From assembly GCF_000455605.1 (NCBI RefSeq), contig NC_017025.1, positions 2,046,001 through 2,110,000 of the forward strand: a stretch of 64,000 nucleotides of DNA, given 5' to 3'. Shown one piece after another: positions 59,603 to 61,147 of the stretch (positions are counted from its first letter, which is position 1; each line of letters opens with the position of its first letter). A model generated the notes under the pieces. That model was not told the DNA's origin and ran no database searches. It saw only the letters and a program-made list of their open reading frames with translations. The DNA is from Flavobacterium indicum GPTSA100-9 = DSM 17447. GTDB lineage: Bacteria; Bacteroidota; Bacteroidia; Flavobacteriales; Flavobacteriaceae. Made by a program: the position numbers and the translations under genes.

Positions 59603-59656
59603 AAACAAAAAAAGTCCTGATTTCTCAGGACTTCAGGGTGAATGATGGGTCTCGAA
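59603..59656 (-). repeat. 54-bp direct repeat, left end of the array
   Basis: Comprises the terminator hairpin (59612-59633) and the tRNA-His 3' fragment (59637-59656). The other copies lie at 59962-60015, 60321-60374, 60680-60733 and, as the real tRNA end, 61039-61092. Confidence 0.85.
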
Positions 59657-59687
59657 TGCCGACGATAAATGTCGGCATCGAGACAAA

Positions 59688-59948
59688 CTATGTTTCGTCT
59701 CGACCCGCGTATTTTTCAATAAACATTAATAATCTTTCTCTGTTCAAATTTTTCAATTTTTTCTCTAAAACCATTGCTTCAGATCTTGAAGACTTTTCTA
59801 AAACACATTTTTTAACCCATGGAATATAGGGTGAAGTTGCTTTTTCATATCCTGAATTATGCCTCAAAATTCTCTCATGAAAATTTTGTGTTTGACCTAT
59901 ATAAAATTTATCAAAATCTAACGAGTAAATTATATAAACATAAAACAT
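59688..59948 (-). CDS. GIY-YIG nuclease, array copy 1
   Basis: This 86-residue protein is a single GIY-YIG endonuclease domain of the small YhbQ/UPF0213-like kind. MFYVYIIYSLDFDKFYIGQT carries the two catalytic tyrosine segments. The catalytic arginine and histidine are in HERILRHNSG, and the metal-binding glutamate is in RSEAMVLEKKLKNL. It ends KYAGRDET. Copy 1 differs from the others by QNFHERI in place of QNFEERI, and shares MVLEKK with copy 2. No promoter is evident directly upstream, so expression may depend on read-through from tRNA-His. Confidence 0.85.
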   Translation of the reverse strand: MFYVYIIYSLDFDKFYIGQTQNFHERILRHNSGYEKATSPYIPWVKKCVLEKSSRSEAMVLEKKLKNLNRERLLMFIEKYAGRDET

Positions 59949-60046
59949 ATGACTTTTTTTAAAACAAAAAAAGTCCTGATTTCTCAGGACTTCAGGGTGA
60001 ATGATGGGTCTCGAATGCCGACGATAAATGTCGGCATCGAGACAAA

Positions 60047-60307
60047 CTATGTTTCGTCTCGACCCGCGTATTTTTCAATAAACATTAATAATCTTTCTCT
60101 GTTCAAATTTTTCAATTTTTTCTCTAAAACCATTGCTTCAGATCTTGAAGACTTTTCTAAAACACATTTTTTAACCCATGGAATATAGGGTGAAGTTGCT
60201 TTTTCATATCCTGAATTATGCCTCAAAATTCTCTCCTCAAAATTTTGTGTTTGACCTATATAAAATTTATCAAAATCTAACGAGTAAATTATATAAACAT
60301 AAAACAT
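60047..60307 (-). CDS. GIY-YIG nuclease, array copy 2
   Basis: Identical to copy 1 except for QNFEERI (two base changes). It keeps MVLEKK, as copy 1, but has the EER of copies 3 and 4, so it is intermediate between the array ends. All GIY-YIG catalytic residues (YVYIIYS, FYIGQT, the ERILRH arginine and the conserved glutamate in SEAMVLEK) are intact. It sits in the second 359-base unit between the same hairpins and tRNA fragment. Confidence 0.85.
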   Translation of the reverse strand: MFYVYIIYSLDFDKFYIGQTQNFEERILRHNSGYEKATSPYIPWVKKCVLEKSSRSEAMVLEKKLKNLNRERLLMFIEKYAGRDET

Positions 60308-60405
60308 ATGACTTTTTTTAAAACAAAAAAAGTCCTGATTTCTCAGGACTTCAGGGTGAATGATGGGTCTCGAATGCCGACGATAAATGTCGGCATCGAG
60401 ACAAA

Positions 60406-60666
60406 CTATGTTTCGTCTCGACCCGCGTATTTTTCAATAAACATTAATAATCTTTCTCTGTTCAAATTTTTCAATTTTTTTTCTAGAATCATTGCTTCAG
60501 ATCTTGAAGACTTTTCTAAAACACATTTTTTAACCCATGGAATATAGGGTGAAGTTGCTTTTTCATATCCTGAATTATGCCTCAAAATTCTCTCCTCAAA
60601 ATTTTGTGTTTGACCTATATAAAATTTATCAAAATCTAACGAGTAAATTATATAAACATAAAACAT
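60406..60666 (-). CDS. GIY-YIG nuclease, array copy 3
   Basis: Encodes the same 86-residue protein with QNFEERI and MILEKK (Val to Ile from three base changes against copy 2, two of them silent). The sequence appears identical to copy 4, so these two are the most recent duplication or have been homogenised. The open frame and catalytic residues are intact, arguing against simple decay. Confidence 0.85.
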   Translation of the reverse strand: MFYVYIIYSLDFDKFYIGQTQNFEERILRHNSGYEKATSPYIPWVKKCVLEKSSRSEAMILEKKLKNLNRERLLMFIEKYAGRDET

Positions 60667-60764
60667 ATGACTTTTTTTAAAACAAAAAAAGTCCTGATTT
60701 CTCAGGACTTCAGGGTGAATGATGGGTCTCGAATGCCGACGATAAATGTCGGCATCGAGACAAA

Positions 60765-61025
60765 CTATGTTTCGTCTCGACCCGCGTATTTTTCAATAAA
60801 CATTAATAATCTTTCTCTGTTCAAATTTTTCAATTTTTTTTCTAGAATCATTGCTTCAGATCTTGAAGACTTTTCTAAAACACATTTTTTAACCCATGGA
60901 ATATAGGGTGAAGTTGCTTTTTCATATCCTGAATTATGCCTCAAAATTCTCTCCTCAAAATTTTGTGTTTGACCTATATAAAATTTATCAAAATCTAACG
61001 AGTAAATTATATAAACATAAAACAT
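60765..61025 (-). CDS. GIY-YIG nuclease, array copy 4 (tRNA-proximal)
   Basis: This 86-residue copy is the closest to the intact tRNA-His. The ATG at 61025 is used; the frame is open further upstream but would run backwards into the tRNA gene. It begins 17 bases after the tRNA terminator T tract. Its last codons (GRDET) lie in GGGTCGAGACGAAACA, a near copy of the tRNA T-arm sequence GGGTTCGAGACCC, as if the ancestral gene ended by running into a tRNA. Catalytic residues are intact. Confidence 0.85.
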   Translation of the reverse strand: MFYVYIIYSLDFDKFYIGQTQNFEERILRHNSGYEKATSPYIPWVKKCVLEKSSRSEAMILEKKLKNLNRERLLMFIEKYAGRDET

Positions 61026-61047
61026 ATGACTTTTTTTAAAACAAAAA

Positions 61048-61069
61048 AAGTCCTGATTTCTCAGGACTT
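61048..61069 (-). terminator. Terminator of tRNA-His, copied in every array unit
   Basis: AAGTCCTGA and TCAGGACTT pair over GAAA (minus strand) and run into a seven-base T tract, four bases after the tRNA 3' end. Identical copies lie at 60689-60710, 60330-60351, 59971-59992 and 59612-59633. Confidence 0.88.
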
Positions 61070-61072
61070 CAG

Positions 61073-61147
61073 GGTGAATGATGGGTCTCGAACCCACGAC
61101 CTTCGGAACCACAATCCGACGCTCTAACCAACTGAGCTACAATCACC
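61073..61147 (-). tRNA. tRNA-His (GUG)
   Basis: The minus strand folds with G-1, acceptor GTGATTG/CATTCAC, D arm GCTC, anticodon stem TCGGA/TCCGA around TTGTGGT (anticodon GTG, histidine), and T arm GTGGG-TTCGAGA-CCCAT with discriminator C pairing G-1. All features of tRNA-His are present. Positions 5 and 68 are both T, leaving a T-T mismatch in the acceptor stem. Its segment from T54 to C73 is repeated four times in the array downstream. CCA is not encoded. Confidence 0.92.

Follow-up and report, generated by a model that had tools for sequence, protein, structure and literature searches.

A tandem GIY-YIG nuclease array at tRNA-His of Flavobacterium indicum belongs to an apparently undescribed family of one-gene elements in Bacteroidota tRNA genes

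The 64,000-nucleotide stretch of Flavobacterium indicum GPTSA100-9 = DSM 17447 analysed here (NC_017025.1, positions 2,046,001 to 2,110,000; the window) holds, behind an intact tRNA-His gene, a tandem array of 359-bp units, each encoding a GIY-YIG nuclease of 86 residues. This array is a member of a large family of tiny elements with a single gene each, apparently undescribed so far, that reside inside tRNA genes of Bacteroidota. By protein trees and neighbouring tRNAs, each nuclease clade keeps mostly to one tRNA isoacceptor across genera, and the elements are probably isoacceptor-specific miniature homing cassettes, which would spread by cutting and copying. An earlier note, made from the letters of the window, had named no described element of this design; likewise, the literature searched did not yield any account of chromosomal cassettes of this kind, and the sources consulted label the genes with nothing more specific than putative endonuclease and similar general terms.

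The array at tRNA-His

The strain genome is a single contig of 2.99 Mb. On the minus strand of the window, the tRNA-His gene, confirmed by both ARAGORN and Rfam, and its terminator are followed by four 359-bp units (59603-61038), which Tandem Repeats Finder reported as a 359-bp period with 4.2 copies and 99% matches over 59603-61092. The number of units and their period are as the earlier note had them, but the units are not exact copies, with 0-5 mismatches: the two tRNA-proximal units are identical, unit 3 differs by 3/359 positions and unit 4 by 5/359. In each unit, an intact GIY-YIG gene of 86 codons is accompanied by a long perfect palindrome, the 3' end of tRNA-His beginning at the first T of the T-loop, and a terminator. 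The tRNA end and terminator form a 54-bp direct repeat (five copies, 100% identity, spacing 359) that bounds every unit, as previously described. Both hairpins reported earlier were recovered, the terminator at -14.4 kcal/mol (z -4.5) and the inner hairpin, or palindrome, at -23.3 kcal/mol (z -8.1). By eye, the outer palindrome stem is made from T-loop letters of the tRNA itself, and the final codons of the GIY-YIG gene resemble the T-arm. Among open reading frames (ORFs) of at least 60 amino acids (aa), the unit carries the GIY-YIG gene and frames antisense to it only, in agreement with the earlier statement that it contains no integrase.

The window protein passed the PF01541 cut-off (E 2.1e-14), and residues S9, Y16, G18, R26, H30, E62 and K66 are invariant across 50 sequences. 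AlphaFold predicted a bare GIY-YIG domain (mean predicted local distance difference test score, pLDDT, 94.5), and by sequence and fold the nearest solved structures are UPF0213 proteins (PDB 1zg2, 1ywl), SLX1 and I-TevI. In this model, 86 residues would leave little room for a separate DNA-binding domain. The protein had no match in phage or plasmid records, and two profile scans of viral contigs gave no confirmed hit.

PF01541 has 12 matches in the strain genome, which harbours two further arrays: two 352-bp units after a tRNA-Met(cat) gene pair (initiator type by eye), and three 332-bp units after a tRNA-Asp gene. In both, every gene is followed by a mutilated tRNA copy consisting of an anticodon-region piece, a palindrome, the T-arm with the acceptor end, and a terminator. 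No integrase was recognized by eye among the ORFs of at least 140 aa in the fetched flanks of these two arrays, which resemble groEL, J-domain-like, DUF456-like and DUF58-like genes. Elsewhere in the genome, a second, longer GIY-YIG gene (L015, C1:1745616-1745843) lies in a field of dispersed repeats and not at a tRNA.

Table 1. Features of the tRNA-His array, in window positions
Feature	Position	Strand	Evidence
Intact tRNA-His(gtg)	61072..61146	-	ARAGORN; Rfam tRNA 63.8 bits
54-bp repeat copy 1: T-loop to discriminator plus terminator, within intact gene	61039..61092	-	Repeat search; terminator fold
Unit 1, adjoins intact tRNA, 359 bp	60680..61038	-	Tandem Repeats Finder, repeat search
Unit 1 GIY-YIG gene, 86 aa	60765..61025	-	PF01541 E 2.1e-14; AlphaFold mean pLDDT 94.5
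Unit 1 palindrome, 3' arm extends into tRNA T-loop	60726..60761	-	Fold -23.3 kcal/mol, z -8.1
54-bp repeat copy 2: mutilated tRNA-His 3' end plus terminator	60680..60733	-	Repeat search
Unit 2, 359 bp, identical to unit 1	60321..60679	-	Unit comparison
Unit 2 GIY-YIG gene, 86 aa	60406..60666	-	ORF, profile search of genome
Unit 2 palindrome	60367..60402	-	
54-bp repeat copy 3	60321..60374	-	Repeat search
Unit 3, 359 bp, 3 differences from unit 1	59962..60320	-	Unit comparison
Unit 3 GIY-YIG gene, 86 aa	60047..60307	-	ORF, profile search of genome
Unit 3 palindrome	60008..60043	-	
54-bp repeat copy 4	59962..60015	-	Repeat search
Unit 4, tRNA-distal, 359 bp, 5 differences from unit 1	59603..59961	-	Unit comparison
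Unit 4 GIY-YIG gene, 86 aa	59688..59948	-	PF01541 E 1.7e-13
Unit 4 palindrome	59649..59684	-	
54-bp repeat copy 5, outermost, followed by xerD flank	59603..59656	-	Repeat search

The proximal GIY-YIG frame stays open upstream across the terminator and into the tRNA (60765-61112, minus strand; 115 aa from a GTG), and frames exceeding the domain length are open in many GIY-YIG matches of the family genomes too. Outside the array, two adjacent genes of about 235 aa in the window (56937-57641 and 57902-58612) are apparent paralogues by eye, the second without an NCBIfam match.

tRNA association and isoacceptor fidelity across Bacteroidota

A profile (A2) built from 15 tRNA-linked short GIY-YIG proteins matched 163 of 199 family genomes and 198 of 296 phylum genomes, counts that include other GIY-YIG genes. 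We examined 139 loci from about 98 Bacteroidota genomes (the locus table gives 99 genomes, 78 genera and 10 families, each number apparently counting one blank entry, the row of the window); L068 and L190 were left out as duplicates of L013 and L064. An intact tRNA lies within 500 bp in 115/139 loci, upstream of the GIY-YIG gene in 76 and downstream in 39, and in none is it on the opposite strand. BLAST detected tRNA fragments or an inter-unit tRNA in 21 of the other 24 loci, and a tRNA-Pro piece is visible by eye at the contig end of one more, L092. With tRNA pieces at 22 of these 24, the association with tRNA seen in the window extends to its relatives; neither an intact tRNA nor tRNA pieces were detected at L075, near a contig edge, or at L156. 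As a control, we used other PF01541 loci of the genus. Of the 29 retrieved from the genus search, four are of the short class and lie at tRNAs; among the remaining 25, one of which is a 570-aa frame, none has a tRNA within 500 bp.

A cassette typically measures about 300-390 bp and holds a single short GIY-YIG gene. More than one unit is present in 50/139 loci, with a maximum of eight, and units are spaced by 280-420 bp in 80/85 cases. Most loci combine one intact tRNA on one side with a partial tRNA copy on the other. The window shows the 3' layout: the intact tRNA leads, and the distal copy is missing its 5' portion. The 5' layout starts with the 5' part of the native tRNA (often nucleotides 1-22), followed by a palindrome, often an extra tRNA piece, the gene, and the intact tRNA, within whose first nucleotides the gene often ends. 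Depending on the clade, the tRNA is broken in the anticodon arm or variable region, at the D-arm junction, or in the T-loop. The T-loop boundary described in the earlier note is special to the clade of the window and a few others. That note had recorded the hairpin, yet missed both the mirror-image 5' layout and the clade-specific palindrome that marks most mutilated copies.

Two Met arrays, L113 (upstream of 1486) and L116 (1331), open with a partial tRNA whose cut lies in the anticodon loop (nucleotide 32), and no intact tRNA was called there. Solitary tRNA-His pieces (32-75) are located 24-32 kb from the intact gene in three genomes (G009, G032 and G033). tRNA genes are landing sites for integrase-borne elements, and these Met and His pieces look like the far ends of integrase-borne islands using the same tRNA genes.

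On a tree of 111 cassette proteins, the isoacceptor label (17 labels) changes 33 times, against an average of 82.8 changes in 300 shuffles, none of which gave fewer than 76; the labels of L083 and L124 are doubtful, since the true partner could be a tRNA other than the one named. Switches of layout number 14 (shuffled mean 30.2), indicating that a clade can change its layout and retain its tRNA. The window protein groups with proteins found at tRNA-His in four other genera (L090, L097, L127 and L151; at most 55% identity), and L124 falls into the same group. For the Val clade, loci were chosen by protein alone with a clade profile (A4), the best 80 of 100 relatives corresponding to 79 loci in named genomes. 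When isoacceptors were scored against each other, the best-scoring tRNA within 350 bp was Val in 75/79 loci, Arg in three (L281, L283 and L288) and Ala, weakly, in one (L275). L288 is located at tRNA-Arg(tct), and L281 also has two ARAGORN tRNA-Val genes upstream; in 63/79 loci ARAGORN recognized an intact tRNA-Val. A Val-type gene sharing 85% identity with the Flavobacterium query also turned up in a record titled Bifidobacterium breve metagenome-assembled genome (L252), an assignment that is probably a binning error.

The partial tRNA copy is usually broken by a palindrome, while the intact tRNA persists beside the cassette. At the 125 junctions with a BLAST-found tRNA anchor, several of them from single arrays, a perfect stem of 6 bp or more occurs within 32 nucleotides of the anchor in 103, compared with 241 of 6250 shuffles. 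In either layout, the palindrome mostly lies directly against the native part of the tRNA at the outer end, which would fit a cassette that enters the tRNA gene together with a rebuilding part of its own. Palindrome class follows the protein tree as well, with 19 changes over 68 rows (shuffled mean 36.5, minimum 33 of 300). CCTGC arms are present in 8/8 Arg(tcg) rows, in both layouts, TCCGC arms in five rows of initiator-type Met, and CCCCG arms in Phe (two), one Asn and the other Met(cat) gene of L145. TCCCG arms are found in 3'-layout Ala (5/6 rows) and Pro (7/11), in nine Val rows, beside three with TTCCG, and in all Asp rows other than two from Flavobacterium, which have TCTCG.

Palindromes of the form TCCCGAT(0-8)ATCGGGA occur at 15 places in the strain genome and in 51/80 family genomes, compared with four genomes, once each, for a control pattern. 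At eight loci (L229, L230, L245, L250, L253, L255, L268 and L281), ARAGORN called Val palindrome pseudo-tRNAs as Lys, Glu, Cys, Phe or unassigned tRNAs; such palindrome-bearing copies are a source of false tRNA annotation.

Ratios of nonsynonymous to synonymous substitution rates (dN/dS) were 0.05-0.43 in 16 pairs, five further pairs having been dropped for saturated dS, and indicate that the GIY-YIG protein is maintained by purifying selection. Decay occurs too, as seen from internal stops in 10 GIY-YIG genes among the matches listed in the family genome search. Empty and occupied alleles were compared at tRNA-His, where loci from 30 of the 61 genus genomes were available and 29 were assessable (L175 ends 1 base past the tRNA). 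The window locus alone is occupied, the other 28/29 being empty, and the neighbouring bshB1 is present in 29/30. From tRNA-His to xerD, the distance is 99 bp in the array-free G039 versus 1553 bp in the window strain.

Array growth was tallied in arrays of at least three units with an intact tRNA beside them. L242 (same locus as L052) and L094 (broken frame in the first interval) were left out, as were L053, L101, L103, L113, L193 and L285, where no adjacent intact tRNA was called. The unit pair next to the tRNA is more alike in seven arrays, less alike in one and tied in three, so that addition of units next to the intact tRNA is mildly favoured. Compared with the terminator of the intact tRNA, those of inner copies have a mean identity of 0.98 (36 values) and those of last copies 0.81 (42 values, 11 under 0.7), a divergence that fits insertion with a native outer end. 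Homogenisation or local duplication also contributes.

Proposed homing and competing explanations

We propose that the nuclease would cut the matching tRNA gene on a cassette-free chromosome, and that the break would be repaired by copying the cassette in. The carried tRNA part would rebuild a working tRNA, at little cost to the host as a consequence, and the palindrome would spoil the target in the leftover copy. New units could be added beside the intact tRNA, or through break-induced unequal exchange between the long repeats, as with SegB of phage T6; arrays would grow because the intact tRNA stays a target. Apart from its T-loop detail, the homing-like reading of the earlier note gains much from the comparison, as it fits both the fidelity of clades to isoacceptors and the patchy presence at tRNA-His. 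A bolder version describes phylum-wide minimal homing elements made of a short nuclease gene, a hairpin and a tRNA half, each lineage addressed to a single isoacceptor. These would enter an essential gene and rebuild it with the half they bring, mark the discarded half with a hairpin typical of the clade, and multiply in tandem next to the mended gene, the same address being served by a cassette restoring either the 3' or the 5' half. We regard this version as evenly poised between right and wrong.

Several points weigh against homing. The 139 loci were picked by similarity to the 15 tRNA-linked proteins of the profile, so that the share of them at tRNAs does not apply to GIY-YIG genes at large; 24 of them lack an intact tRNA within 500 bp, and the four nearest kin of the window array at tRNA-His (L090, L097, L127 and L151) have no downstream tRNA copy. 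Isoacceptor fidelity is not absolute, with 33 label changes against a possible minimum of 16 on a tree that rests on 83 columns and has numerous open forks, and in the Val clade 2/79 loci are at tRNA-Arg and two further are ambiguous. A stem of 6 is absent in 22/125 junctions, while the native tRNA stretch at the same place has such a stem in 35/125. The position of the palindrome varies within a clade (for Arg(tcg), between nucleotides 22/23, 32/33 or 57/58), and it need therefore not mark the cut site. Many single-unit loci have near-identical terminators after the intact tRNA and the far copy, which is unexpected for a cassette carrying its own terminator unless homogenisation followed. Finally, the intact tRNA beside a cassette should stay cuttable, unlike ordinary homing alleles; low expression behind the terminator, or cutting of single-stranded DNA only, could resolve this.

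In an unlikely alternative, the protein would be an Ssn-type endonuclease directed to hairpins in single-stranded DNA, with the palindrome and not the tRNA as its cognate site. Such an enzyme would act on incoming single-stranded DNA during transformation or conjugation, protecting or reshaping its own locus, and the tRNA gene would provide conserved homology for exchange. The tracking of protein clades by palindrome class speaks in its favour, as do the CCTGCC-type palindromes that accompany Arg(tcg) proteins in both layouts (three and five rows), the TCCCGAT..ATCGGGA palindromes found elsewhere in 51 of the 80 family genomes, and the nearest solved folds, which include UPF0213 and SLX1, a structure-specific nuclease. 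However, the tree does not separate isoacceptor from palindrome class, a single class (TCCCG, 30/68 rows) is common to several isoacceptors, and other GIY-YIG genes of the genus seldom lie within 200 nucleotides of a stem of at least 8 (4/24, with 2 in shuffles). It is improbable that the arrays arose passively, from a domesticated nuclease gene behind a tRNA that was duplicated by unequal crossing-over of repeated tRNA ends with no part played by the nuclease. Long direct repeats alone account for changes in copy number, and the many single-unit loci with near-identical flanking terminators agree with this, but it leaves unexplained the clade-isoacceptor fidelity across genera, the mirror layouts, the palindromes and the patchy presence at tRNA-His, and the greater likeness of tRNA-adjacent units (seven arrays versus one) also speaks against it.

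Other explanations carry little weight. A function at the RNA level, in which the hairpin-bearing tRNA-like piece works in a transcript through 3' end protection, tRNA mimicry or a toxin-antitoxin system, is very unlikely: some Val pseudo-tRNAs do retain a D-arm and a T-arm on either side of the hairpin and pass as tRNAs in ARAGORN, and in the 3' layout the position of the gene behind a terminator means that read-through of the tRNA transcript may express it, but by eye the piece is not tRNA-like in the 5' layout or in the His, Phe and Arg cassettes, and the conserved part is a DNA-nuclease fold. Slightly less likely still is integration of the units at a tRNA attachment site by a tyrosine recombinase, be it XerD from the adjacent gene or a different enzyme. 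The 3' ends of tRNA genes classically serve as attachment sites, and xerD adjoins the array; yet this neighbour is the housekeeping XerD (TIGR02225, 333 bits, cut-off 329.6) and sits at the same place in array-free G039, the window unit contains no further gene, and by eye the fetched flanks of the Met and Asp arrays hold no integrase-like ORF of at least 140 aa. We give hardly any credence to an assembly artefact, given units that differ at up to five positions, three arrays in a one-contig genome, and more than one unit in 50 of the 139 loci, in many assemblies.

Significance and comparison with known systems

If homing is correct, a mobile gene among the smallest conceivable seems to exploit tRNA genes with a nuclease alone, in the approximately 98 Bacteroidota genomes considered here and probably in many more. 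The tRNA-matched nucleases form a panel for studying how a GIY-YIG domain of 80-90 residues reads DNA, and make testable how a selfish gene inhabits an essential gene without harm. The family also accounts for spurious tRNA calls and for frames with N-terminal extensions close to tRNAs.

Integrative elements that target tRNA genes enter the gene, restore it, leave a partial copy and carry an integrase. The cassettes share with them insertion, a restored tRNA and a partial copy, but hold a GIY-YIG gene only, no integrase being found among the ORFs of at least 60 aa in the window unit. As with homing endonucleases, occupied and empty alleles of a conserved target gene coexist at tRNA-His, and for the most part each nuclease lineage has one target. 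UPF0213 proteins (PDB 1zg2, 1ywl) are nearest in sequence and fold, and their PDB titles give no link to tRNA; SLX1, a partner-bound structure-specific nuclease, is likewise near in both. Ssn proteins are short site-specific single-strand GIY-YIG endonucleases with a hairpin-like repeat as target. The likeness lies in the pairing of short GIY-YIG proteins with palindromic repeats, whereas Ssn repeats are dispersed over the genome and the cassette palindrome lies inside a mutilated tRNA copy.

SegB of T-even phages is larger than the cassette proteins. In phage T6 this free-standing GIY-YIG homing endonuclease makes breaks inside tRNA genes, and through homologous recombination a tRNA is amplified in tandem together with the SegB gene; the motif is RAWTSGAAC, and neighbouring tRNAs are of no favoured isotype (PMC13096335). 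On the other strand this motif, as given there, reads GTTCSAWTY, which looks like a T-loop. By description, SegB resembles the cassettes in placing a GIY-YIG nuclease beside tRNA genes and in tandem amplification. Embedded tRNA halves and palindromes, which the sections consulted do not mention for SegB, are features of the cassettes, and where SegB is phage-borne and has neighbouring tRNAs of no favoured isotype, the cassettes are chromosomal and isoacceptor-faithful.

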